DNA from: Afipia felis ATCC 53690
Lineage (GTDB): Bacteria; Pseudomonadota; Alphaproteobacteria; Rhizobiales; Xanthobacteraceae
Length of the DNA: 64,000 nt
Assembly (NCBI RefSeq): GCF_000314735.2
Contig: NZ_KB375270.1
Location: 3,850,001 to 3,914,000, forward strand
Direction of reading: 5' to 3'
Under the pieces are notes generated by a model. It worked only from the letters and a program-made list of their open reading frames with translations. It ran no database searches and was not told where the DNA came from. Positions 819 to 51,809 of this stretch are shown here, one piece after another (within the stretch, counting starts at the first letter, position 1; every line of letters starts with the position of its first letter). The translations under genes were made by a program, and so were the position numbers.

Positions 819-1508
819 TTAGCGGGGCCGGGCCACGAAGGTCTTGCGTGCGGGATTGGTCCCGACATTGCGCGGCGCCAGCGTCGCGGCAAAGTCCGCA
901 TCCGCGAGTTTGCGGAGCATGTCGTCCGTGCGGTAGCTGTACAGGCCGATCTTGTGCCGGAGCGAGCGGTAATTTGATAGCGCCATGCGGGTGATGCCGG
1001 TGACTGCGTCGATCAAAAATCCGTTTTTTGCCGCGAATTTCAGCAGTGCCGCAGCGTCGGTGGCAGCGCCGACGTCTGGATCGAGAATGTCGCCAAGCAC
1101 GAAGCGGCCGTCCGGTTTCAGGAGGCGGCGAAACCGCACGAAAGCGGCGTCGAGATCTTCCGGCGTCATGTACTGGGCGACCGAAATCATCACGATGAGA
1201 TCGAGCGAGGCATCAGGCAGGGCTGTCAGGTCGTCGGGCGATAGTGCCTCGATATTGGGCACGGCAGCAAACCGGTCTGCCAGGCGCGCCCGCACACTCG
1301 GCGCGGGTTCGGCAAGGATGAGACGACTGCATTTCGCTGCGACACGATTGGCGGACATGGCCTCGCCGCAGGAATAGTCGAGCACCGTGGCTTCGGGCGA
1401 GGCGATGTAGCCGATGATGTCATCGGCGATGAGATTGAAATGAGCCTGCCGGTGGGCGTCGCTCACATAAATCGAAGGTGCGGAATCATAGAAATCAATC
1501 CAGGCCAT
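819..1508 (-). CDS. SAM-dependent class I methyltransferase
   Basis: The 229-residue product has the class I methyltransferase order: motif I 'VLDYSCGEAMSANRVA', an acidic residue after the second strand ('LILAEPAP'), then 'LDLIVMISVAQYMTPEDLD' and 'LLKPDGRFVLGDI', the post-motif signature of small-molecule or lipid methyltransferases. The substrate cannot be told. The start chosen is the ATG at 1508 ('MAWIDFYDSAPSIYVSD'); the open frame continues upstream for 67 codons but that part is low-complexity and would run into the promoter and 5' end of the divergent dps gene. Motif I lacks the usual GxGxG spacing (DYSCGEA), a deviation seen in many methyltransferases of this type. Confidence 0.8.
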   Translation of the reverse strand: MAWIDFYDSAPSIYVSDAHRQAHFNLIADDIIGYIASPEATVLDYSCGEAMSANRVAAKCSRLILAEPAPSVRARLADRFAAVPNIEALSPDDLTALPDASLDLIVMISVAQYMTPEDLDAAFVRFRRLLKPDGRFVLGDILDPDVGAATDAAALLKFAAKNGFLIDAVTGITRMALSNYRSLRHKIGLYSYRTDDMLRKLADADFAATLAPRNVGTNPARKTFVARPR

Positions 1509-1635
1509 GAACTTCCGGTAATGGTTTCGGACAGGGGTTCCGGCGCCGGAACAGGCACCTATGTCGTGAGTTGGTGGTCGTCGAGCCGGATTTCCCCGGC
1601 GGCGCAACTCACTCCTATTAGCAGGAAGGTCCGTC

Positions 1636-2160
1636 GTGAGCAAAAACAAGAACTCCGTAGCGTCCGAACTGGATACGCCAACCGATCTGCCACAGGCGGC
1701 AGTCGACAAGATTTCAGTGGCGGTGAATACGCTGCTGGCCGATGCTTTCGCGCTCTATCTGAAGACGAAGAATTTCCATTGGCACATCAGTGGGCGGCAT
1801 TTCCGCGATTATCATCTGCTGCTCGACGAGCAATCGGATCAGATTTTCGCGACCACAGACCAGTTGGCTGAACGCGTTCGCAAGCTTGGCGGCACCACGC
1901 TGCGCTCGATCGGGCAGATCGCCAAGCTGCAGACGATCAAGGACAACAACGAGGCTTATGTGCCGCCGCGCGAGATGCTGCGCGAACTCATGAACGACAA
2001 CAAGCATATGGCGAAGGCGATGCGCGATGCGCACGAGATCGCCGACAAGGGCGGTGACGTTGCGACCGCAAGCATTCTCGAGAATTTCATCGATGAAACC
2101 GAGCGGCGAACCTGGTTCCTGTTCGAGGCGACTCGTCAGGAAGGCGGCAACGAGGCGTGA
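1636..2160 (+). CDS. dps: Dps-family DNA-binding ferritin-like protein
   Basis: Dps proteins form 12-subunit shells that oxidise Fe(II) with hydrogen peroxide and protect DNA under stress. This 174-residue protein carries the diagnostic ferroxidase helix 'KNFHWHISGRHFRDYHLLL' followed by 'DEQSDQIF', which supplies the inter-subunit His, Asp and Glu iron ligands, and a ferritin-type four-helix length. The N-terminal tail is short and has few lysines, so DNA binding may be weak. The start is GTG at 1636 behind the Shine-Dalgarno-like AGGAAGG at about 1623. It is a single-gene unit ended by a strong terminator at 2189. Confidence 0.93.
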   Translation: MSKNKNSVASELDTPTDLPQAAVDKISVAVNTLLADAFALYLKTKNFHWHISGRHFRDYHLLLDEQSDQIFATTDQLAERVRKLGGTTLRSIGQIAKLQTIKDNNEAYVPPREMLRELMNDNKHMAKAMRDAHEIADKGGDVATASILENFIDETERRTWFLFEATRQEGGNEA

Positions 2161-2188
2161 GCGGCTTCGCTGTCCCGATGAATCCGGG

Positions 2189-2220
2189 AGCGTCCCCAGC
2201 GATGGGGACGCTTTTGTTTT
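2189..2220 (+). terminator. Rho-independent terminator of dps
   Basis: The arms AGCGTCCCC and GGGGACGCT form a perfect 9-bp stem around a 6-base loop, followed by TTTGTTTT. It lies 28 bases after the dps stop codon. Confidence 0.9.
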
Positions 2221-2236
2221 GCGGGGCAGGCTCGCT

Positions 2237-2998
2237 TTACGCGGCTTCCTGTTGCTGGTTGGCGCGCCGCGAGAACCACAGGATGCACACGAGCATGAAT
2301 GCAGCGAGCAATGCGGACGCATAGAAGCGGCTGAAGGCCAGCCCGCCATCCGCGACGGGTTTGTCGAGGAAATCGCCGACGGTCGCACCCAACGGCCGGG
2401 TCAGGATGAATGCGCTCCAGAATAGCAATGTGCGCGACACGTTCGTCAGGAAATAGGCGGCCACGATGACCAGCAGTCCCGCCGTGAAGACGAGCGCGCC
2501 GCCTTCATAGCCAAGGCCGGTGGCGGCCATCCAGTCGCCGAGCGCGGTCCCGAGGGTCTGTGAGAACAGGATCGTGATCCAGTAGAACATCTCGACTTTG
2601 GGTGAGGTGATGGTGCTGACCGATACCGAGCCGGCGGTGCGGTACCAGATCGCAAGAGACGCAAGCAGGAGGGCGAACAGGATCGTCGCGCCGCCGGCAT
2701 AGCCGATGCCCAGCGAGCGATCCGCGAAGTCCGCCATCGTCGTGCCGGCGGTCGTGGTCGCGACGATCACGGCCCAGTAGAGAAGCGCGTGAAAACGTTT
2801 CGCGGACATCTGCAGGAGAACCGCGGCCACGAAAAGCCCGATAAAGATGAGGCTGCTGACGGCATAGCCGAGGTTCATGGACATCGATACGGCGTCTCCG
2901 GCCGTCTCACCCAACGTCGTCGCGGCGATCTTGATGATCCAGAACGCCAGCGTGACCGCAGGCACTTTGCTGGCGTGATCGTCCGCGATCTTGTTCAT
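2237..2998 (-). CDS. COG4705-type polytopic membrane protein with four internal repeats
   Basis: The 253-residue product is almost entirely hydrophobic with about eight membrane segments. It is built from four copies of a unit of about 60 residues: an aromatic pair with Trp (about residues 20, 75, 140 and 194), then a TLGTxxGD-like motif (residues 27-35, 82-90, 147-155 and 201-209), then in the first three units an LGYxGG-like turn. The pattern fits the uncharacterised membrane-anchored family COG4705. The conserved acidic residue closing each motif lies inside predicted membrane segments and could line a cation path, but no substrate is known. Transcribed alone on the minus strand, convergent with dps. 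Confidence 0.75.
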   Translation of the reverse strand: MNKIADDHASKVPAVTLAFWIIKIAATTLGETAGDAVSMSMNLGYAVSSLIFIGLFVAAVLLQMSAKRFHALLYWAVIVATTTAGTTMADFADRSLGIGYAGGATILFALLLASLAIWYRTAGSVSVSTITSPKVEMFYWITILFSQTLGTALGDWMAATGLGYEGGALVFTAGLLVIVAAYFLTNVSRTLLFWSAFILTRPLGATVGDFLDKPVADGGLAFSRFYASALLAAFMLVCILWFSRRANQQQEAA

Positions 2999-3241
2999 GA
3001 ATGTCTCCGTTCAGGGGTGACCGGTGCTGCCCGGAGGAGAGGTCACAGATAAAAAATGTTGGTTGTGAGACGGGGCCGTTTCACAACGCGGTGATGTGTT
3101 CGACGATGACGCTTCCTATTCGCCGAAAGGTGAATTCGGCGCGGCCGCGTCCAGTGTGGCGGGAGACGGCAAACCGCCTTTGCCTTGGACGCAGCCTTCC
3201 GCTAAGGCATGGCGCGATAGGATCAGCCTGCGGGTTCTTGC

Positions 3242-4252
3242 ATGAGTTCGACGGTGTCACGCGCCGATGTTGTTCGCCCGATCGCCGTTCTCGTCGATCG
3301 TGAGGGCCTCGGCGACACGCTTCTGAAGTTGCCGTTCCTGCGCGCGATCTCGCGCGCCTATCCGGACCGGCCGGTCTGGTGGATCGCGACCCACACCACC
3401 TCGATGGCGCGGGAGATGAAGCCGTTTGTCGGCGACATGATTTCGCATGTCGTCGAGAATGCCAACATCACGACCCCGATGGGCACGGTGATCCGGCAAT
3501 TGCGAACATTCCCGCCGTTCGATCTCGTGTTCGACATGCGCACGCGACTCATCACGGTGGCGCTCGCGCGCACGGTCCTGAAGCATCGCGGCTTCTATTG
3601 CTGCCTGCCGGGCTATGCGCTCTCCGACAAGCGTCCGCCCGGCCGCTGGTCGCGACCGGAAGGAATCGCCGCGCGGGCGCTGTCGATGGCGGAGGCCGCC
3701 TTGCAGCGCGAACCGGAATGGCAGGGTCGTTTTCAACTCAGCGAACGCATTCGTGCACGCGCCGCGCAGACGCTGCCGGACGGCCCGAAATATATCGGCA
3801 TCGCCATTGGTAGCCGCGAGGTGCGCAAGAACTGGCCGCTGGCGAATTACGTCGCGCTGGCCGAGCGACTCGCCGCGCAGGGTCTGACGCCGGTGTTCTT
3901 CACCGGCCCGCAGGAGCGCGCCATTGCGGATGAGTTGGGGACCGCGATTCCGTCGGCGCTGTTTCCGCAAGCCGATGCGGACGATGCCGACGCGGCTTCG
4001 CTGGAATATGCCATTGCGCTCGGCGAACGCGTGAATGTTGCGGTGGCCAATGACAGCGGCATGGGACATCTGCTCGGCGCGCTCGGCGCACCGCTCGTCA
4101 GCCTGTTCGGGCCGACGAACCCTGCGCGCTGGGCGCCGCTGACAAAGCGCGGCGTCGTGATTCGCGCGCAGGACCATGGTGGCGAGACGATGGAGGCGAT
4201 TCCCGTCGATGCGGTGGTCGCTGCCGTCGAATGTTTATTGCGTGAGGTTTGA
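3242..4252 (+). CDS. Glycosyltransferase family 9 (heptosyltransferase-like)
   Basis: The 336-residue protein fits GT9, the family of ADP-heptose:LPS heptosyltransferases. Visible are the N-terminal 'DREGLGDTLLKLPFLRAI' motif (usual form GxGDxL), a central switch 'KYIGIAIGSREVRKNWPLANYVALAERL', and the donor-site block 'VAVANDSGMGHLLGALGAPLVSLFGPTNPARWAP', which carries the family's D-S-G-x-x-H and FG(P/S)T signatures. It probably adds a sugar to lipopolysaccharide core on the cytoplasmic face of the inner membrane. Its 3' end overlaps the convergent GT4 gene by 18 bp. The acceptor is unknown. Confidence 0.87.
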   Translation: MSSTVSRADVVRPIAVLVDREGLGDTLLKLPFLRAISRAYPDRPVWWIATHTTSMAREMKPFVGDMISHVVENANITTPMGTVIRQLRTFPPFDLVFDMRTRLITVALARTVLKHRGFYCCLPGYALSDKRPPGRWSRPEGIAARALSMAEAALQREPEWQGRFQLSERIRARAAQTLPDGPKYIGIAIGSREVRKNWPLANYVALAERLAAQGLTPVFFTGPQERAIADELGTAIPSALFPQADADDADAASLEYAIALGERVNVAVANDSGMGHLLGALGAPLVSLFGPTNPARWAPLTKRGVVIRAQDHGGETMEAIPVDAVVAAVECLLREV

Positions 4253-39604: not shown

Positions 39605-42600
39605 ATGAATATGGAACTGTCGCGGCGCTCGTTTATGCTCGGGGCCGGCGCGGGTTTGGTCGGAACAAGCCTTGGCGCTCTTGGATTTGGTGAAATCGAA
39701 GTTGCCCATGCACTTTCAATCCGGCCTTTCAAACTTGCGCAGACCAAGGAAGTTCGCAGCCAGTGTCCGTACTGTGCAGTTTGCTGCGGAATGTTGATCT
39801 TCTCTGCCGAGAGCAAGGAAGAAAAAGGCAAAATGGAAGTCACCCACATCGAGGGTGACGTGGATCATCCGGTCAATCGCGGCACACTTTGCCCCAAGGG
39901 TGCAGGCGCCCTCGATTACATCAAATCAAAGACGCGGGTGAAGTACCCGATGTATCGCAAGCCCGGAAGCAACGGCTTCGAACGGGTGAGTTGGGATTTC
40001 GCGATGGAGCGCATCGCGAAGCTGATGAAAGAAGATCGCGACGCCAACTGGGTCGAGAAGAATCGCGACGGCGTCACTGTCAATCGGTGGCTGACGACCG
40101 CATTCCTCGCCGGCAGTTCGGTAGCCAATGAAGGTGGATGGGCAACATTCAAGGTCTCGCGTGGCCTTGGTCTGTTGCAGATCGAAAACCAAGCAAGGAT
40201 TTGACACGGACCGACGGTGGCCAGTTTGGGCCCCACATTTGGTCGCGGTGCAATGACGAATTCCTGGACGGACATCAAGAACGCTGATCTCGTCTGGATT
40301 ATGGGTGGTAACGCAGCGGAAGCGCATCCCTGCGGATTCAAGTGGGTCACCGAGGCGAAAGCCGAACGTGGAGCCAAGCTGATGGTGGTTGACCCCCGGT
40401 TCAACCGGTCGGCGGCCATGGCGGATCACTATGCGCCGATCCGTTCGGGATCGGATATCGCGTTCCTGTCTGGCGTCGTCAACTATCTGCTGACGAACGA
40501 CAAGATCCACAAGGAGTATGTGCGCCACTACACCAATGCGGCCTTCATCGTGAAGGACGAGTTCGCGTTCAACGAAGGCCTGTTCACGGGCTATGATGAG
40601 AGCAAGCGTTCGTATGACCGCAGCTCATGGGAATACAAGTTCGGACCTGACGGATTCGCTATACGCGATATGACGTTGCAGGACCCGCGCTGTGTATTCC
40701 AGCTCATGAAGAAGCACTTCGCACAGTATTCGCCGGAGCTGGTGGAGCGGGTTTGCGGCACGCCGAAGGACAAATTCCTGAAGGTTGCCGAATGGGTCGC
40801 TTCGACCGCTAATGGCGAGCGGGCGATGACCATCATGTACGCGCTCGGCTGGACCCAGCACAGTCACGGTGCCCAGAACATCCGCACCGCGGCGATGATC
40901 CAGCTTCTGTGCGGCAACATCGGTATCCCCGGCGGCGGCGTTAACGCATTGCGCGGTCATTCCAACGTGCAGGGCATCACCGATGTCGGCACCCTGACGG
41001 CGGCGATTCCGGGCTATCTGGCCTTGCCGACCGAACAGGAGCCGACGCTGGAGTCGCATCTTGGCAAGCGGACCTTCAAGCCACTGACCCCGAACCAGAC
41101 CAGCTACTGGCAGAACTATCGCAAGTTCTATGTCAGCTTCCTGAAGACGCAGTTCGGAGCCAATGCGAAGCCGGAGAATGAGTTCGGCTATAATTATCTG
41201 CCGAAACTCGACGGCATCTATGACTGCATCAAGATGTTCGACCTGATGCATCAGGGTAAGACCAACGGTCTTCTCTGTCAGGGGTTCAACCCTCTGATGG
41301 CAATTCCCAACTCGAACAAGAGCCGGGAAGCGTTGTCGAAGTTGAAGTTCCTGGTCAGCATGGACCCGATCGAGACAGACACGGTTCGGTTCTGGGAGAA
41401 CCATGGCGAGTTCAACAATATCGATCCCGCCAAGGTTCAGACCGAGGTGTTCATGCTGCCGGTGACCTCCTTTGCGGAGGAAGAGGGCAGCGTCACCAAC
41501 TCGAGCCGCCTGATCCAGTGGAAATGGAAGGCAGCCGATCCGTACTTCGAGTCGCGTACCGACACTGAAATCCTCTCGGATCTCTTCGTGCGCATGCGCA
41601 AGATGTACGAGAAGGATGGCGGCAAGGGTAAGGACGCGATCCTCGCGGTGGACTGGAGCTACAAGGATCCGCTCCACCCGGCCGTTGAGGAACTCCAGGC
41701 CGAACTGAACGGTAAGGCGCTGGTGGACCTCAAGGATGCGGACGGAAAGGTGGTTCGCGCCGCCGGCCAGCGGCTCGCCAGCTTCGGCGAGATGCGCGAC
41801 GACGGTTCGACTGACGGCTGCATGTGGATCTACACCGGCTTCTACGGTCCGACCGGCAACATGGCCCAGCGGCGCGACAACTCCGACCCTTCGGGTCTGG
41901 GTGTCTATCCGAACTGGGGCTTCTCGTGGCCGGCTAACCGCCGTATTCAGTACAATCGTGCTTCGGCAGATCCCGACGGCAAGCCGTGGAGCGAAGCCAA
42001 GAAGTACATGTACTGGAACGGCGAACGCTGGACCGGGCCGGATGTGCCGGACTATGTGCCGACGATTCCGCCGAGCCGTGCGGTCGGACCCTTCATCATG
42101 AACGCGGAAGGCGTATCGCGTCTCTGGGTTCGTGGCTTGATGGCCGACGGTCCGTTCCCAGTGCACATGGAGCCGTTCGAGTCACCTGTGGGTAACCTTG
42201 TGTTCCCGAAACTCAAGGGCAACCCGGTGGCGCGGGCGTTCAAGAACGATCTGGAGGCGCTTGGCACGTCCAAGGACTTCCCGATTGTCGGCACCACGTA
42301 TCGTCTCACCGAACATTTCCACTACTGGACGAAGGGTGTGCATGCCAATGCGGTCATGCAGCCTGAGTTCTTCGTGGAAATCTCCGAGCAACTCGCGAAG
42401 GAGAAGGGGATCAAGCACGGACAGATGGTCCGGATCAGATCCAACCGTGGCGAAGTCAAGGGCAAGGCAGTTGTCACCAAGCGCCTCAAGCCGTTCATGA
42501 TCGACGGCAAGCCGGTGCATCAGGTGGGATTGCCGCTCAACTTCGGCTTCATCGGCGAGACCAAGAAGGCTTCACCGATCAACAGCCTCACCTCCGCGAT

Positions 42601-42679
42601 CGGCGACTCGAACTCGCAGACGCCGGAATACAAGGCGTTCCTCGTCAATATCGAACCCATCCCGGGTCCGGTGGCTTAA
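39605..42679 (+). CDS. fdoG: Selenocysteine formate dehydrogenase catalytic subunit (FdoG/FdnG type)
   Basis: The gene is read through TGA 40202-40204 as selenocysteine, giving 1024 residues with Sec200. The flanks, 'ENQAR-I-Sec-HGPTVASLGPTFGRGA', match the Sec site of E. coli FdnG/FdoG nearly residue by residue. Other features: Tat motif SRRSF (6-10), [4Fe-4S] ligands Cys54, Cys57, Cys61 and Cys96, and bis-MGD domains to the end. It oxidises formate at the outer face of the inner membrane and passes electrons to FdoH. GGAGGAA lies 9 bases before the ATG. Automated callers will split it into two genes at the TGA. Located with its B and C subunits and all sel genes. Confidence 0.96.
40205..40248 (+). 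promoter_or_regulatory. Bacterial SECIS hairpin in fdoG mRNA
   Basis: Right after the Sec UGA, GACC pairs with GGTC as the outer helix, GTGG with CCAC and CC with GG as the inner helices, leaving an AGTTTG apical loop with the G-T expected for SelB contact. Position and loop match the E. coli fdn/fdo element. Pairing was done by eye. Confidence 0.8.
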
Positions 42680-42694: not shown

Positions 42695-43633
42695 ATGTTT
42701 ACACCTGTTCCTAACCCGACCACCAAGCCGGCTCCCGCGAAGTTTGGCGAGCAGGACCTGATCCGCCGTTCGGCATCTACCGTCACTCCGCCTGCCAAAC
42801 GGCAGACGGAAGTGGCGAAGCTGATCGACGTGTCGAAATGCATTGGCTGCAAGGCCTGCCAGGTGGCGTGCCTCGAGTGGAATAATCTCACCGAGGAAGT
42901 CGGCATCAATACGGGTGTCTATGACAACCCGCACGATCTGACGGAAAACACCTGGACGCTGATGCGTTACACTGAGTACGAGAATGCCGAAACCGGCAAT
43001 CTCGAGTGGCTGATCCGGAAGGATGGCTGCATGCATTGCGAGGATCCGGGCTGCCTCAAGGCTTGCCCGGCACCCGGCGCCATCGTGCAGTACTCCAATG
43101 GCATTGTGGATTTTGTCCACGACAAGTGCATCGGCTGCGGCTACTGCGTGAAGGGGTGTCCGTTCAACATCCCGCGCCTGTCGAAGGCCGACTCCAAAGC
43201 CTACAAGTGCACGCTCTGCGTTGACCGCGTCGCGGTCGGGCAGGGACCGGCATGTCAGAAGGCGTGTCCGACACAGGCGATTGTGTTCGGCACCAAGGAC
43301 GAGATGAAGCAGTGGGCTGACCACCGCATCAAGGATCTCAAGTCGCGCGGCTTTAGCAATGCCGGCCTCTACGATCCTCCGGGTGTCGGCGGCACACATG
43401 TCATGTACGTGCTGCAACATCTCGACAAGCCGCAGATCTACGCCAACCTGCCGAACAACCCATCGATCAGTCCGATCGTTGAGGTTTGGAAGGGCGTGAC
43501 CAAGTACGCCGGTCTCGCCGCTATCGGTGCCTTTGCCGCCATCGGATTCCTGCATCATGCCATCGCCGGCCCCAACAGGGTGTCGGAGGAGGATGAGAAG
43601 AACGCCGAGCGGTTGACGGAGAGACAGCCATGA
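42695..43633 (+). CDS. fdoH: Formate dehydrogenase iron-sulfur subunit
   Basis: The 312-residue beta subunit has four ferredoxin-type clusters: '[15 protein letters not shown]', '[14 protein letters not shown]', '[13 protein letters not shown]' and 'CTLCVDR' with 'CQKACPTQA'. A single membrane helix '[17 protein letters not shown]' near residue 280 anchors it from the periplasmic side, as in FdnH. It follows fdoG by 15 bp with AGGGAGGG before the ATG, and its stop overlaps the fdoI start (ATGA). It has no signal of its own and should be exported with FdoG by Tat. Confidence 0.95.
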
Positions 43634-44451: not shown

Positions 44452-45366
44452 ATGTCCAGCGTCGATCCGACTGCGCCTGATCCATCCGTCATCAGCAACA
44501 TTCCGACGCCGCAATTTGCGCGGCTCCCAGATCCGAGCCAGTTATTCTCGGTCCGCGAGGCGCGGTTCGCCGCCCTCGCCGAGGGGCATGACCTTGCGCC
44601 TTATCTGAAGTTCCTGTCTGGGCTATGTGGAGTGCAGGCGGCCATTCAGGACGGCTTGCCGGAACCGGATGCGATTGCGTCGGAAGCACTGGAGCGCGCT
44701 CGTCAACATGGCATGCCGCCGCTCGACCGCGGTCATTTCATAGCCGATGCTGCTTTCGTTGCGACGCTGGATCGGCTGCTTGCGGCGGCAGCCGATATCG
44801 ATATGCCGACGCAAGCCCGCGCGGCGCTCGAAAAGGTCACGAAAGCGGATGCCGACGGGCGCGCGCGCATGGTCGAGAACGTGTTGGCGGAGGCCATTCC
44901 GGTGGAGGCGCTCGCCGAGCACATCTTTGCGGCTGCTGCGCTTCAAGTCCATTTCGCCCGCCTTGCTGCACGGCTCGACGCCAAGAGCCTGCAACCGGTC
45001 GGCGATGGCGTGTGTCCGTCCTGCGGGGGAGCGCCGACGGCGACCGTGCTCGTCAACTGGCCGCGCACACCGGGGGCGCGCTATTGTTCCTGCTCGTTGT
45101 GCGGAACGCTTTGGAATTACGTGCGCTCGAAATGCACGCTCTGTGGCTCGACCCGCAAAATCCTGTTTCAGGAAATCGAGGGCGCGGGCAACATCAAGGC
45201 CGAGACCTGCGATGACTGCCATGGCTATATGAAAGTGCTCAATCATCAGAAAGATGATCGCCTTGATCCGGTAGCCGATGACGTCGCGACGCTGGGGCTC
45301 GATCTGCTGGTACGCGAGCTCGGCTTCCGTCGCGGTGGCGTTAATCCATTTCTGATCGGCTACTAG
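44452..45366 (+). CDS. fdhE: Formate dehydrogenase accessory protein FdhE
   Basis: FdhE is a cytoplasmic rubredoxin-like chaperone needed for assembly of Tat-exported formate dehydrogenases. The 304 residues contain an N-terminal helical half and the four C-x2-C knuckles 'CPSCGGAP', 'CSLCGTLW', 'CTLCGSTRK' and 'CDDCHGYMK' that bind iron. The start at ATG 44452 follows GTGAGGGTAAATA. It lies between the structural genes and selA, separated from fdoI by 150 bp with a strong hairpin. Confidence 0.94.
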   Translation: MSSVDPTAPDPSVISNIPTPQFARLPDPSQLFSVREARFAALAEGHDLAPYLKFLSGLCGVQAAIQDGLPEPDAIASEALERARQHGMPPLDRGHFIADAAFVATLDRLLAAAADIDMPTQARAALEKVTKADADGRARMVENVLAEAIPVEALAEHIFAAAALQVHFARLAARLDAKSLQPVGDGVCPSCGGAPTATVLVNWPRTPGARYCSCSLCGTLWNYVRSKCTLCGSTRKILFQEIEGAGNIKAETCDDCHGYMKVLNHQKDDRLDPVADDVATLGLDLLVRELGFRRGGVNPFLIGY

Positions 45367-45376
45367 GGAGTCCGAT

Positions 45377-46792
45377 ATGGACGCAGGGATTTCCCCCTCC
45401 ATCCGAATTCCGTCCGTCGATGAGATTTTGAAAACGCCGCAAGCTCATCAGGCGATCGAACGTTTCGGACGGAAACGCACGGTGGATGCGATACGTCATG
45501 TGACCGCGGTCGTGCGCCGTGAAATCGGTGCGGACGCGGTGCTCATGCCCGCTCCTGAGGCCATCGCGGCCGATGCCCTTGCGTGGCTTGAGGCCGATGC
45601 CCGCCCGAATGCGCGGGCAGTGTTCAATCTCACCGGCACGGTCCTGCACACCAATCTGGGCCGCGCCATTCTCGCGGAAGCAGCGATCGAGGCTGCGACG
45701 GTCGCGATGCGCGAAGCGATGGCGCTGGAATTCGATCTGGCGCAGGGCAGGCGCGGCGAACGCGACGCTCTGGTTCGCGGTCTGCTGTGCGAGTTGACCG
45801 GCGCCGAGGATGCGACGGTGGTGAACAACAATGCCGCCGCCGTGCTGCTCGCGCTCAACACCTTGGCCAAGGGAAAAGAGGCTATCGTTTCGCGCGGCGA
45901 GTTGATCGAGATCGGCGGCGCCTTCCGCATGCCGGAGATCATGGCGCGCGCCGGTGCCAGGCTGGTCGAAGTCGGGACCACCAATCGCACGCATGAAAAG
46001 GACTATGCGGCGGCGATCAACCCGAAGACCGGGTTGATTCTCAAGGTCCATACATCAAACTACCGCATCGAGGGCTTCACCAAGTCGGTGTCTGGCAAGG
46101 CGATCTCTGCGCTGGCGCGCGCGAGTCACGTTCCGCTCCTGAACGATCTTGGCTCCGGCACGCTGGTTGATCTGTCGTGCTATGGGCTGATGCATGAGCA
46201 GACCGTGGCGGAGGCGGTGGCCGAGGGCGCGGACCTCGTGACGTTCTCCGGCGACAAGCTGCTCGGTGGCCCACAGGCCGGATTCATCGTCGGGCGTCGG
46301 GATTTGATCGCGCGACTGAACCGCAACCCGATGAAGCGTGCGCTGCGTATCGACAAGATCCGTCTTGCGGCGATCGAAGCGACGCTGCGGCTTTATCGCG
46401 ATCCGGACCGGCTGGCTGCACGTCTGCCGACATTGCGCATGATGGCGCGGCCGCTTGCCGACATCGAGGCCGCGGCGCAGCGTGTGTTGCCTGCCATCGC
46501 GGCCGCCGTGGGTTCTCGCTTTGACGCTGACGTGATCGCCTGCACAAGCCAGATCGGTTCGGGCTCGTTGCCGAGCGAAGTGATTCCAAGTGCGGGCATC
46601 GCGTTGCGCGTGGCCAATACGCGCGGCAAGGGCCGTGCCCTCCTGGAATTAGCGACAGCCCTTCGGACGCTGGATCAACCTGTCATCGGCCGCATCGAAA
46701 ACGATGCGTTTATCCTCGATTTGCGCTGCCTCGAAGACGAGGCCGCGTTCGTGCGCAATCTCGCGACCTTGCGAACAGGGGGCCGAGGCTGA
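45377..46792 (+). CDS. selA: L-seryl-tRNA(Sec) selenium transferase
   Basis: SelA turns Ser-tRNA-Sec into Sec-tRNA-Sec using selenophosphate and PLP in a decameric ring. The 471 residues have the family blocks 'NLTGTVLHTNLGRAILAEAA', 'VVNNNAAAVLLALNTLAKGKE' (in two parts) and the PLP-binding Lys294 in 'VTFSGDKLLGGPQAGFIVG'. An N-terminal tRNA-binding domain is present ('IRIPSVDEIL'). It starts 10 bp after fdhE with AGGGAG, and its stop overlaps the next start (TGATG). Confidence 0.96.
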   Translation: MDAGISPSIRIPSVDEILKTPQAHQAIERFGRKRTVDAIRHVTAVVRREIGADAVLMPAPEAIAADALAWLEADARPNARAVFNLTGTVLHTNLGRAILAEAAIEAATVAMREAMALEFDLAQGRRGERDALVRGLLCELTGAEDATVVNNNAAAVLLALNTLAKGKEAIVSRGELIEIGGAFRMPEIMARAGARLVEVGTTNRTHEKDYAAAINPKTGLILKVHTSNYRIEGFTKSVSGKAISALARASHVPLLNDLGSGTLVDLSCYGLMHEQTVAEAVAEGADLVTFSGDKLLGGPQAGFIVGRRDLIARLNRNPMKRALRIDKIRLAAIEATLRLYRDPDRLAARLPTLRMMARPLADIEAAAQRVLPAIAAAVGSRFDADVIACTSQIGSGSLPSEVIPSAGIALRVANTRGKGRALLELATALRTLDQPVIGRIENDAFILDLRCLEDEAAFVRNLATLRTGGRG

Positions 46793-47616
46793 TGGGCTTG
46801 CGCGGATTCCTTGCACAGTTACGGCAGCGGCGCGATGTGGATGCGCCAGTTGAGGCTGTGGGGGAGGCGTTGGTCGCTGAGCGGATGGCACAGGCTTATG
46901 AGGCCGCCGAGGCGAACGACTACGAATCTGCGCTGGCAATCTGGGGGCCACTTGCGCATCAGGGCATTACGCGCGCGCAGAACAATATCGGAAAATGTTT
47001 CAGCGATGGACTTGGCGTCGATCGCGATAGCGCGCTTGCGCTGCGCTGGCTGACGCTTGCGGCCGAAGGTGGTGATCCTGTCGGCCAGCGCAACCTTGCC
47101 GAAGTCTATTTCAAGGGCGAGGGAGTTCAGGCGAACGCAGTCCGGGCCGCCGAACTATACCGAACGGCGGCGGAAGCAGGCGACGGTCCCGCGCAAGACA
47201 TGTTGTCGTGGATGCTGGTTGAAGGCGAAATGATCCCTGGCGATCTGTCTGACGCAAAGCATTGGGCGGAAGCCGCAGCGGCGCAGGGCATCGTGCCTGC
47301 CATGACACGGCTCGGCATGATGTATCACAACGCGCTTGGCGTCGAACGCGACGCGGCTGCAGCTGCACGCTGGTGGGACAAGGCCGCTGTGCTCGGAGAC
47401 GCAGATGCACAGGCGATGCTGGGTGCGGCATATCAGCTCGGCGCCGGGGTGCCGCGTGACGGTGTTGCCGCGCTGATGTGGCTGTTGCGGGCGCAGGCCG
47501 GCGCAAGCCTGCTGGCGGAGCCCTTCATCCATCCGACATTCGCGGCATTGTCGGTCGCGGAGATCGAGCGTGCCAGGAGGCTCGCGGGCCTGCCATTGCC
47601 GGAGCCTGCATTATGA
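46792..47616 (+). CDS. Sel1-repeat (tetratricopeptide-like) protein between selA and selB
   Basis: The 274-residue protein consists of about six Sel1-like repeats, for example 'ALRWLTLAAEGGDPVGQRNL', 'AAELYRTAAEAGDGPAQDML' and 'AARWWDKAAVLGDADAQAML'. It has no signal peptide or membrane helix, so it should be cytoplasmic. Its start overlaps selA's stop and its stop overlaps selB's start (ATGA), so it is a translationally coupled member of the sel operon. Sel1 repeats are protein-interaction modules; the name has no link with selenium. A scaffolding role for SelA or SelB is only a guess. Confidence 0.85.
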   Translation: MGLRGFLAQLRQRRDVDAPVEAVGEALVAERMAQAYEAAEANDYESALAIWGPLAHQGITRAQNNIGKCFSDGLGVDRDSALALRWLTLAAEGGDPVGQRNLAEVYFKGEGVQANAVRAAELYRTAAEAGDGPAQDMLSWMLVEGEMIPGDLSDAKHWAEAAAAQGIVPAMTRLGMMYHNALGVERDAAAAARWWDKAAVLGDADAQAMLGAAYQLGAGVPRDGVAALMWLLRAQAGASLLAEPFIHPTFAALSVAEIERARRLAGLPLPEPAL

Positions 47617-49712
47617 TCGTCGGCACCGCTGGGCATATCGATCACGGCAAGACCTCGCTGGTACGGGTGCTGACGGGCGTCGACACCGACCGCCTCAAGG
47701 AGGAAAAGGCGCGGGGCATTTCGGTTGATCTCGGCTTCGCCTATCTGCCGATGCCGGCGGGCGGCATTCTTGGCTTCATCGACGTGCCGGGACATGAGCG
47801 TTTCGTTCACAACATGCTTGCCGGTGCAACCGGAATCGATTTCGTTTTGCTGGTGATTGCAGCCGATGACGGTGTGATGCCGCAGACGATCGAACATTTG
47901 GCAATCGTCAATCTGCTCGGCATCAATGTCGGCGCGGTCGCGATCACCAAATCGGATATGGTGGATACCGAGCGTCTCGCCGAGGTTCGCGTCGAGATTG
48001 CAAACCTGCTGGCTTCGACGGTGCTGCATGATGCGCCGATGTTCCCGGTATCCAGCGCGACCGAGGCGGGCGTCGCGGAATTGCGCGCGCATCTTTTCGC
48101 GGCGGCGGCAGCATGGTCCGGCCGCTCGGCGCAGGGGCGTTTCCGTCTTGCGGTCGATCGTTCTTTTACGTTGTCTGGCGCGGGGACCGTGGTGACTGGA
48201 ACGGTGCTCTCTGGCAGTGTCTCGGTCGGAGATCAGGTTGTCATCAGCCCGTCGGGTCGATCGGCGCGCGTGCGTGCTATCCATGCACAGAACCGTGCCG
48301 CTGAGCGCGGACAGGCAGGAGATCGCTGTGCGCTCAATCTTGCAGGCGATCAGATCAGCAAGGATGCGATCAGCCGTGGTGACGTCGTGCTCGATCCGCA
48401 TCTGCATGCGCCGGCCAATCGGATCGATGCGAAATTTCAGGTGCTGGCCTCGGAAACGCGGCCCGTCACGCAGTGGATGCCGGTGCGGTTGCATCACGCC
48501 GCGGCCGAGATCGGTGCGCGGGTGGTGTTGCTGGGCGACGATCCGGTGACGCCCGGCGGCGAAGCTTTCGTCCAGCTTGTCACCGACCAGCCGATCGCCG
48601 CGGCGGCGGGGGATCGCTTCGTGCTCCGCGATACCACGGCGCAGCGGACCATCGGCGGGGGTGTGCTGGTCGATCTCCGCGCGCCGGCGCGCAAACGTCG
48701 TACACCCGAGCGAATTGCGCAGCTTGAAGCAGGCGCGATTGCCGATCCGGACAAAAGCCTATGGGCGATGTTAACCGCCGCCGGTTATATCGACTTTACC
48801 GCCTTCGTTCGCGACCGTGCGTTGTCGGCGAGCGAGCGCGACGCGATGATCCAGCGCCTTAGCCTGCTGCGGCTGCCGACTGCGAAAGCCGAATACGTGA
48901 TCGCGCCGGCTGCGTGGCTTCGTCTGAAGACCGCGATCCATGCAACGCTGACGGCCTTTCATGCCAACCATCCGAACCTGTCCGGCATGGGGTTCGAACG
49001 CCTGCGGCTGCAGCTTGAACCACGCTTGGCGGCGCCGGTGTTCGCGGCGCTGCTGCAGGGGCTTGCACGCAACAAGGAGGTAGGCCTCGATGGCGCATGG
49101 GTTCGCTTGCCGGGCCATGAGGTGCGGCTGTCGCTGGTCGATGAAGCAGTGTGGAGCAAGATCGCACATTATATTGGCGGCGAGAGTCGTTTCCGGCCAC
49201 CACGCGTGCGGGATATTGCGGGCTATACCGGCATTGCCGAGCCAGAGGTGAGGCGCGTTTTCAAGCTGATTGGCCGCATGGGCAAGGTCGATGAGATTGC
49301 CCACGATCATTTCTTCCTGCGCGGAACAGTCGCCGAGATCGTTCAGATCATGACGGATGTGGCGGTCGCTGCGCCCGATGGCTATTTCACTGCGGCACAG
49401 TTGCGCGACCGCCTCGACAATGGCCGCAAGGTTGCGATACAGATTCTCGAATTCTTCGACCGGCATGGCGTTACCATCCGCCACGGTGATTTGCGTCGCG
49501 TCAATAAGCATAGGCTTGATCTGTTCGGCAGAGCGTCTGATGAGTTGCCGACGTCAGCAAAGGTTGCGAAGATCGAAGTTAACGGAAGAGCATCGTTCCC
49601 GGTGGGGCGTCCGGACTTCAAATCCGGGAGGGGCCGCGAGACGGTCCTTGGTGGGTTCGACTCCCATTCTCTTCCGCCAAATCCTCTCTCATCGAAATTG
49701 GGTGTGCGATGA
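47613..49712 (+). CDS. selB: Selenocysteine-specific elongation factor SelB (frame extends through selC)
   Basis: SelB delivers Sec-tRNA-Sec to UGA codons by binding the SECIS hairpin. The GTPase part has G1 '[17 protein letters not shown]', G3 'DVPGHE' and G4 'TKSD'; beta-barrel domains 2 and 3 follow, then winged helices from about residue 370 that bind SECIS. The domain pattern ends near residue 640 ('HRLDLFG'). The frame continues to residue 699, and residues 658-689 are encoded by the tRNA-Sec gene. Its stop at 49712 overlaps the next ATG (ATGA), like other junctions in this operon. The start at ATG 47613 overlaps the Sel1 gene's stop. Confidence 0.94.
49584..49679 (+). tRNA. selC: tRNA-Sec (UCA)
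   Basis: A 96-base gene starting GGAAGAG and ending CTCTTCC-G-CCA. It has a 6-bp D stem (CGTTCC/GGGGCG, two T-G pairs), an anticodon arm CCGGA-CTTCAAA-TCCGG with anticodon TCA, a long extra arm (AGGGGCCG/CGGTCCTT) and T arm GTGGG-TTCGACT-CCCAT, all diagnostic for bacterial tRNA-Sec. The eighth acceptor pair would be C-T, so the usual 8+5 arrangement has a mismatch at the junction. CCA is encoded. It lies wholly inside the selB reading frame, 30 bases before the next gene. Confidence 0.96.
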
Positions 49713-50215
49713 CGACGCAGCAGCTCTCCAACTTTCTCGATGGCTTTGAACGCTCCGCGCATGAGGCGAGCGTGAACGAGGAAAATTACCGGCGCGAGAT
49801 CTCTGCCCGCCTCAAGACGCTCGCGGAGGAACGAGCCTTCGGTTTTCGCAGGCTCAATCTGATGCGGACCGTCGTGGCGGCGATTCAGAAATGCGAGACC
49901 GAGGACGATGCGATCGTTGAAGGCTCGGCGGCGTTTCTGCGGGAAGTCGGTTGGTCGGCGGAGAACGAATCCCAGCAGGAGGCGCTGGAGAGGTTTCAGC
50001 CAGTCATCCGCACATGCTGGCGGATCAAACAGGCGGGCGGCGAGGAGGGGGCTAACGGCGAGGCGAAGCCTGAAGCAATCCCCGAGGCGAACCCGGACGA
50101 TATCGGCAAGCAGTTGAGTGAATTCGAAAACTGGTTCGGCAAAGCGCGCAATGGCCCGTTCCTTAGCGTACTTGAGCGAGAGATCGTGGAGCTGCCGCTT
50201 GTCGAAATCTGCTAG
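49709..50215 (+). CDS. Unknown protein encoded directly after selC (first of pair)
   Basis: The 168-residue product has a helical, charged N-terminal half ('LSNFLDGFERSAHEASVNEENYRREISARLKTLAEER'-like composition), then 'EGSAAFLREVGWSAEN', a Glu/Ala/Pro linker (about residues 110-130) and 'LSEFENWFGKARNGPFLSVLEREI'. I recognise no family. There is no signal or membrane helix. Its ATG overlaps the selB-frame stop, and its end overlaps the next gene by 17 bp, so it appears to be part of the sel transcript. Link to selenocysteine is positional only. Confidence 0.65.
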   Translation: MTTQQLSNFLDGFERSAHEASVNEENYRREISARLKTLAEERAFGFRRLNLMRTVVAAIQKCETEDDAIVEGSAAFLREVGWSAENESQQEALERFQPVIRTCWRIKQAGGEEGANGEAKPEAIPEANPDDIGKQLSEFENWFGKARNGPFLSVLEREIVELPLVEIC

Positions 50216-50609
50216 GGAGCGTCGTGGCAAACTCGATGACGCTCTGTTTGACGATTGGGTCGTCAAGGAATATCGGCGTGCCAATGGTTTTACGGCGCTG
50301 ATCGTGCTGGTTTCGACGGCAAATCTCGGCGTTGTGCCGTTGCGCTCGACCTTCACGCATATAATCGGCGATGAGATCAACTGGCATCAGTTCAGCATGC
50401 TGATGCGCGGGGCGGGCGTGGCCTGGGACGCGGTTCTAATCATGCCGGTTAGCGATGAGGACGGCGGGCCCATTGAGGATCACCGCGCGGCGGAAGAGTT
50501 GCGCGCGCTGGAAGATCGCCTCAACGAGGACCGCATGGTCGCCAATGAGGGGCACTTTTTCGACAATTGGGGTCGCCGCATGAAGGTCGAACCCGCGACG
50601 GCGAATTGA
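50199..50609 (+). CDS. Unknown protein (second of pair)
   Basis: About 136 residues from TTG 50199, with GGAG 7 bases upstream; no ATG or GTG fits better before the conserved-looking part. The sequence 'ALFDDWVVKEYRRANGFTALIVLVSTANLG' then 'DEINWHQFSMLMRGAGVAWDAVLIMPVSDEDGGP' looks like a small alpha/beta domain. No family recognised. It overlaps the 3' end of the preceding unknown gene, suggesting coupled translation, and stops 2 bp before the convergent selD end. Confidence 0.55.
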   Translation: MSKSARERRGKLDDALFDDWVVKEYRRANGFTALIVLVSTANLGVVPLRSTFTHIIGDEINWHQFSMLMRGAGVAWDAVLIMPVSDEDGGPIEDHRAAEELRALEDRLNEDRMVANEGHFFDNWGRRMKVEPATAN

Positions 50610-50611
50610 TG

Positions 50612-51661
50612 TCACGCTATGACGCGCACCTCGGCCGGCCCGGCTGCGGTGTAGCCGATGATCCGGGCGGCGCTGTAGCCCGCGCGGTGAATTGTCTCGA
50701 GCGCGGCCTGGGCGTGATCAGCGGCACAGGAAACTAACAACCCGCCCGACGTCTGCGGATCGACCAACAGGTTGCGCTGCCAGTCGGGCAAACCCTCGGG
50801 CAGGCGAATGGCATCGCCATAGCTTGCCCAGTTTCGTGTGGATGCACCGGTGACGTAGCCCTGCTGCGCGAGCTGGGCCGCGTGCGTGAACAGTGGCACC
50901 TCGGTGGCTTTCAGCGCGACGGTGAGCTTCGAGCCGCGTGCGAGCTCCAGCGCATGGCCGAGCAGGCCGAACCCAGTAACGTCGGTAATGGCGTGAACGG
51001 CTTCATCGTTGGCAAGCTCACTGCCAATACGGTTGAGTTGTGTCGTCGAGGCAAGCATTTCGCCGTAACCCTCGCCCGGCAGATCGCCCTTCTTGATGGC
51101 GGCGGAATAGATGCCGACGCCGATGGCCTTGGTCAGGATCAGCGCGTCGCCGGGCTTCGCATCGGCATTGCGGCGCACCTGATCGGGACGGCAGAGGCCT
51201 ATGACGGCAAGACCGTAGATCGGTTCCGTCGCGTCGATCGAGTGACCGCCGGCAACCGGAATTCCGGCCGTCGCACAGACGCTATTGCCACCTGCGATGA
51301 TGTTGCGCACGTCATCGATTGTGACCTTGTTGAGCGGCATGCCAAGGATCGCGAGCGCCATGATCGGTTTCGCGCCCATGGCGTAGATGTCGGAGATCGC
51401 GTTGGTTGCGGCGATGCGGCCGAAATCGAAGGGATCGTCCACCACCGGCATGAAGAAATCCGTGGTGGCCACCACGCAGGTGGAGTCATCGACTTTCCAC
51501 ACCGCGGCGTCGTCACCGGTCTCGACCCCGACCAGCAGTTGACGGAATGGCGCGGCGGCGGGCTGGTTGGCGAGCAACTCCTGCAAGACGGAAGGCGCAA
51601 GCTTGCAGCCGCATCCGCCACCGTGGGCAAGGCTCGTCAGGCGCACGATGGGAGCATTCAT
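50612..51661 (-). CDS. selD: Selenide, water dikinase (selenophosphate synthetase)
   Basis: SelD makes selenophosphate from selenide and ATP, the Se donor for SelA and for 2-selenouridine in tRNA. The 349 residues begin with the active-site Gly-rich loop '[17 protein letters not shown]', where Cys17 is the catalytic residue (a plain Cys, not Sec) with Lys20. '[21 protein letters not shown]' (in two parts) carries the Mg/ATP aspartates, and '[19 protein letters not shown]' and '[11 protein letters not shown]' are typical. It is convergent with the sel operon and so under separate control. Confidence 0.97.
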
Positions 51662-51809
51662 TGTCAGGTCTCCTGCGGATTGCGCCGCGCAGCGGCAGCC
51701 TCACCAGCATTCCGCGCACTGCGCGGAGCGGAGAGCGACAACATACTCCGAAATCATACGCCCGATCGGGCAAGAGATGCAAATGTGCCGTAGCGCCGCA
51801 TCACTGGCG

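Follow-up and report, generated by a model that had tools for sequence, protein, structure and literature searches.

In Afipia felis ATCC 53690, the selB reading frame passes through the whole of the tRNA-Sec gene selC, and among relatives that share this overlap the tRNA keeps a constant phase and the selB stop keeps its position behind the tRNA. We give a probability of roughly 0.6 to the reading that one transcript serves two overlapping products, being either translated through to the end of selB or cut to yield an excised tRNA-Sec. The arrangement is already known, as the nested selB-selC pair is a member of one published for Hyphomicrobiales and other Alphaproteobacteria. What is added here beyond Mukai 2021 is the quantification, the constant phase despite many indels and the stop held behind the tRNA. 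All coordinates refer to the window, the 64,000-nt stretch of contig NZ_KB375270.1 that was analyzed (3,850,001-3,914,000, forward strand).

39605..42679, + strand: fdoG-like frame with one in-frame TGA, upstream of selB; named from sequence and place
46792..47616, + strand: Sel1-repeat protein (Pfam Sel1, 130.2 bits), sharing an ATGA overlap with the selB start
47613..49712, + strand: selB frame, 699 residues from the ATG at 47613 to the TGA at 49710-49712
49533..49583, + strand: spacer in the selB frame, 17 codons, from residue 640 (end of the LDLFGR stretch) to the tRNA
49584..49679, + strand: selC (tRNA-Sec), 96 nt with encoded CCA; SelB residues 658-689 in frame
49680..49712, + strand: post-tRNA stretch, 33 nt, ending in the selB TGA (from translation)
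49709..50215, + strand: ORF1, 168 aa, its start overlapping the selB stop (ATGA)
50118..50609, + strand: ORF2 frame, 163 aa from a putative GTG start at 50118, overlapping the end of ORF1

The selB frame and its nested tRNA-Sec gene

ARAGORN called a tRNA-SeC(tca), with a UCA anticodon, at 49584-49679, and Rfam RF01852 matched 49584-49675 with 76.9 bits (gathering cut-off 47); the agreement of the two rules out a tRNA-calling artefact. ARAGORN also called a tRNA with an incomplete anticodon (gc) at 630-706 on the minus strand of the window, which is possibly odd or degenerate. The initial annotation had described a selB frame open through all of selC and ending at 49712, and translation confirmed this. 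There are 657 selB codons 5' of the tRNA, which starts in register at the first position of codon 658, so that 42 residues lie between the tRNA start and the stop, the same number by codon count as originally described. The SelB model TIGR00475 was matched with 409.3 bits (cut-off 242.25) over model positions 1-578 of 581, and Pfam identified GTP_EFTU, GTP_EFTU_D2, Beta-barrel_SelB, SelB-wing_2 and SelB-wing_3. Since the TIGR00475 match covers residues 1-629 only, the last ~70 residues are an extension, in which the tRNA-derived part reads GRASF...SLPP. The closest named SelB among the matches listed was that of Afipia sp. 1NLS2 (91% identical).

The open frame of a single genome is weak evidence, because the tRNA-Sec of the window has no stop in any of the three forward frames and 60 random codons at 60% GC stay open with a probability of ~0.14. 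Judged from the sequences, it is the comparison of relatives, not this open frame, that exceeds chance.

Mukai 2021 (PMC8124441) reported nesting of selC within selB for diverse Rhizobiales, as well as for some further Alphaproteobacteria; the extension there opens on Gly (GGA) and closes on Pro (CCA), the tRNA length is mostly a multiple of 3, and in many cases the selB stop overlaps the start of ORF1 or ORF2. The same paper proposed, without statistics or experiment on nested selB-selC, that tRNA processing leaves a nonstop selB mRNA and lowers SelB, making SelB and tRNA-Sec alternative products. The A. felis locus has the whole tRNA-Sec in the selB frame on the same strand, the Gly (GGA) start and Pro (CCA) end, a 96-nt tRNA, and an overlap of the selB stop with the next ORF start (ATGA, 49709-49712); nothing essential differs from the published arrangement. 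It resembles Azorhizobium caulinodans in that paper in its tRNA phase, 96-nt tRNA, stop/start overlap, adjoining Sel1-like and fdo genes, and proposed nonstop mechanism. Reviews repeat the Mukai proposal and name no experiment in the passages concerned (PMC13188914, PMC9312934), and PMC12685816 cites Mukai 2021. Among the matches listed from titles and abstract starts of the open-licence literature, no experimental follow-up of nested selB-selC was found. A similar mechanism has been hypothesized for the Armadillidium vulgare mitochondrion, where tRNA-Lys is nested in cox1 (cited in PMC8124441). There, too, the tRNA lies wholly within the coding region in direct orientation; that mitochondrial genome, however, is compact and the host gene unrelated, whereas the host gene in A. 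felis encodes the very factor that carries this tRNA.

Searches of ORF1 and ORF2 against Pfam, NCBIfam and PHROGs found nothing at E 0.001. Homologues of ORF1 lie directly 3' of selB-selC in many relatives, followed by homologues of ORF2, and we infer from its position that ORF1 of the window is the ORF1 of Mukai. When 49000-50700 was scanned for sigma-70 promoters, none was predicted (0.5 expected by chance), a count that bears neither way on a separate promoter for selC. Upstream, the in-frame TGA of the fdoG-like frame indicates that the operon most likely encodes a selenoprotein, and this frame is likely a selenocysteine-containing formate dehydrogenase served by the system.

Phase and stop position among relatives

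Relatives came from three sources. A search of genome contigs for SelB supplied the best 80 of 293; a search for tRNA-Sec across 297 genomes of the order added at least 29 new loci, from the best matches; and when 385 genomes of the class were searched for the SelB C-terminus, 51 gave a match, with loci taken for 30. We scanned 148 records (the window and L001-L147), a pair being a SelB match reaching residue 600 with an ARAGORN tRNA-Sec no more than 700 nt downstream on the same strand. No pair was present in 42 of the 148, including six own-genome tRNA loci without this selB upstream, and the 106 pairs obtained were reduced to 104 by removing two repeats of the window copy. The sample is skewed to close relatives of the window. 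The SelB tree was built on 97 distinct rows, and the seven sequences identical to one of them all belong to stop-before pairs; this is a quick tree with long rows (L093, L110, L089, L001 and others), and the counts drawn from it are parsimony minima on one tree.

The selB frame ran through the tRNA in 41 of the 104 pairs, stopped inside it in 3 and stopped before it in 60. The initial annotation had held that relatives with a stop before selC would count against it. Such a stop is found in 60/104, including the second pair of the same genome, which shows that the overlap is not essential, though not thereby meaningless. The selB stop lies directly before the tRNA in L058 and one base before the tRNA GG in L001 (1497-1501), L044 and L119, as if in these four loci the frame had shifted and then been closed at the tRNA border. 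A plasmid search returned 110 records with relatives, mostly from Sinorhizobium, Ensifer and Roseomonas. In one of the records, a Phyllobacterium zundukense plasmid (L150), the DNA at 1414-3492 encodes a SelB C-terminus, and the gene table, which is declared incomplete, lists no selB in the interval from selA to the downstream ORF; annotation may drop nested selB genes.

The tRNA phase was identical in all 44 overlapping pairs (41 through and 3 with the stop inside), and the 60 stop-before pairs were distributed over phases 2, 0 and 1 as 34, 14 and 12. By parsimony, spacer length (6 to 93 nt) changed at least 21 times and phase 0 times among the overlapping rows; the stop-before rows had 36 and 15 such changes, respectively. 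Drifted frames would mostly have been visible, because 60 of 88 frame shifts introduced at the start of the spacer still reach the tRNA and, of the 44 overlapping tRNAs, 41, 40 and 43 lack a stop in phases 0, 1 and 2. The chance of 0 phase changes in 21 is ~2.4e-4 if non-triplet changes are as frequent as in the control rows and 1.4e-8 at a two-thirds rate, both being rough since the parsimony counts are minima.

Behind the tRNA, a stop in the selB phase fell within 36 nt in 39 of the 41 through pairs. The two remaining phases of these loci, where open through the tRNA, had such a stop in 3/37 and 2/40, a contrast that is flattered in ORF1-bearing loci by ORF1 itself, which partly keeps other phases open. 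In the control, the same phase of non-overlapping pairs, the count was 10/40 (Fisher 2e-11 against 39/41, with relatedness ignored). The length of the post-tRNA stretch has changed at least 20 times on the tree. Eleven through loci have no ORF1 or ORF2 homologue nearby and no frame of at least 50 codons starting at the stop; here the near stop was present in 11/11, and the other phases had one in 0/11 and 2/11. Frame and stop thus look to be under selection as far as the sequences tell. The constant phase and the stop held behind the tRNA give translation through the tRNA a higher likelihood than it would have from the open frame by itself.

The A. felis genome holds three tRNA-Sec genes. Two further sets go beyond the published arrangement, one a second selB-selC pair, without overlap, and the other a distant selB accompanied by a tRNA-Sec of its own. 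In the second pair, selB2 (53.5% identical) ends in a TAA one base before the first GG of the tRNA-Sec, or directly before the tRNA by ARAGORN's 97-nt call; selD2 is convergent, and no matches to ORF1, ORF2 or Sel1 were found within 14 kb. This organism can thus have a tRNA-Sec gene without the overlap. The third tRNA-Sec (G000:C1:2281617-2281708) lies upstream of the distant selB3 (L149 2760-4559; 34% identity over part), so that three selB/tRNA-Sec sets coexist in one genome; genomes with two tRNA-Sec genes, and selABC operons, are described in PMC5330540. Beside selB3 is a near-identical copy of selA (99.2% DNA) and selD (100%). This copy (L149 9817-12408) matches window 45331-46801 and 50614-51728, with the Sel1-selB-selC-ORF1-ORF2 block missing between them, and is either a recent duplication with block loss or an assembly matter.

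Tail peptide, downstream gene and alternative readings

A passive overlap would also give an open frame: selB would have lost its stop ahead of a tRNA open by chance in all frames, the tail would be tolerated noise, and tRNA-Sec would be made as usual with no special regulation. This fits the window tRNA, where an open frame costs little, and the other overlapping tRNAs, which are mostly open in every phase, as well as the gain or loss of the overlap at least six times on the SelB tree. The sister-pair substitutions, in which clear peptide constraint was not seen, also agree with it. A passive tail should permit drift of phase, however, and both the constancy over at least 21 length changes and the hold on the stop relative to the control speak against it, leaving it unlikely.

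The peptide was examined in two ways. Pooled over six close relatives (15 non-independent pairs), pN/pS was 0.19 in the SelB core, 0.39 in the spacer (shifted frames 0.96 and 1.30), 1.69 in the tRNA in the selB frame (shifted 1.76 and 0.42) and 0.43 in the post-tRNA stretch (shifted 0.41 and 1.06). In eight sister pairs, substitutions by codon position were 323/213/960 in the SelB core, with no codon periodicity in the spacer (27/23/31, P 0.20) or the tRNA (6/6/7); the post-tRNA stretch gave 12/6/8 in six pairs, two of the eight having been dropped for unequal lengths. Lacking such periodicity, the peptide seems little constrained, and it looks as though frame and stop are kept and the peptide not clearly so. 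That the tail is a functional part of SelB, such as an extra RNA- or ribosome-contacting segment, is accordingly very improbable in our estimate. In the alignment, which held 35 of the 41 through rows, the tRNA encodes 32 residues, 19 of them invariant or conserved to at least 90%, but this follows from the tRNA itself, and the rest of the tail differs between rows in both length and sequence.

A further reading is that the overlap mainly couples translation of ORF1 or ORF2 to that of selB by a stop-start junction, the tRNA merely being passed through. Such coupling was also noted by Mukai 2021 (PMC8124441). A homologue of ORF1 or ORF2 lies nearby in 30 of 44 overlapping rows against 7 of 57 others (3 of the 60 others were excluded for short contigs), and an ATG overlapping or abutting the stop, with an ORF of at least 100 codons, occurs in 21/44 against 2/60, one of these two, in L001, lying over its tRNA. 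In four independent pairs, with which 0.05 is unreachable, the tight start leans with the overlap (1.8, against 0.1 on average), but the homologue is unlinked to it (0.8, against 0.9). ORF1 of the window has no Shine-Dalgarno-like word, as coupling would have it; nevertheless, 11 of the 21 coupled starts carry one (6.6 expected). The 11 through loci without such a downstream gene retain both the overlap and a stop close behind the tRNA, which rules out ORF1 coupling as the sole reason; at least three of them (L035, L054, L123) have a convergent SelD-like frame, judged by eye from its start. Coupling to ORF1/ORF2 may be a benefit of the overlap without being its sole cause, and as its main function it is quite doubtful.

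The ATGA junctions named in the initial annotation (fdoH/fdoI, in its naming, Sel1/selB and selB/next ORF) are all real in the sequence, ATGA being found at 43630, 47613 (Sel1/selB) and 49709 (selB/next ORF). They had been offered as a sign that the tail is translated. Dual coding is backed by the constant phase and the kept stop, but the junction is weaker evidence than was claimed, because an ORF1/ORF2 homologue is absent nearby in 14 of the 44 overlapping rows. It is conceivable, if only tentatively, that ribosomes traverse the tRNA and that selection keeps the frame and a near stop, not the peptide, even where there is no coupled gene.

Proposed mechanism and its meaning

Under the preferred reading of one transcript with two alternative products, the extension is presumably translated in the cell. 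A ribosome on selB would continue through the tRNA-Sec sequence, adding ~70 residues before stopping at 49712, where it could re-start on ORF1. If folding of the tRNA came first, tRNA-Sec would be released by RNase P and 3' processing, and what remained of the selB message would lack a stop codon. As the release leaves selB nonstop, each transcript would yield either full-length SelB (and ORF1) or tRNA-Sec. The feedback through RNase P cutting that the initial annotation suggested is plausible, and it had been proposed in print in 2021 (PMC8124441). The regulatory mechanism as a whole is offered here as a proposal.

A nested gene of this kind would serve the same end as autoregulation of SelB in E. 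coli, namely limiting SelB relative to Sec-tRNA. In E. coli, SelB binds a SECIS-like element in the leader of its message, whereas the nested model works by excision of the tRNA from the message end. E. coli SelB autoregulation is also cited by Mukai 2021 (PMC8124441).

Frame and stop, rather than the tail peptide, are the features to which these results point for tests. If the proposal is true, the overlap would be a built-in either/or switch in which each excised tRNA-Sec costs one SelB message, and the supply of the carrier would be tied to the supply of its tRNA.
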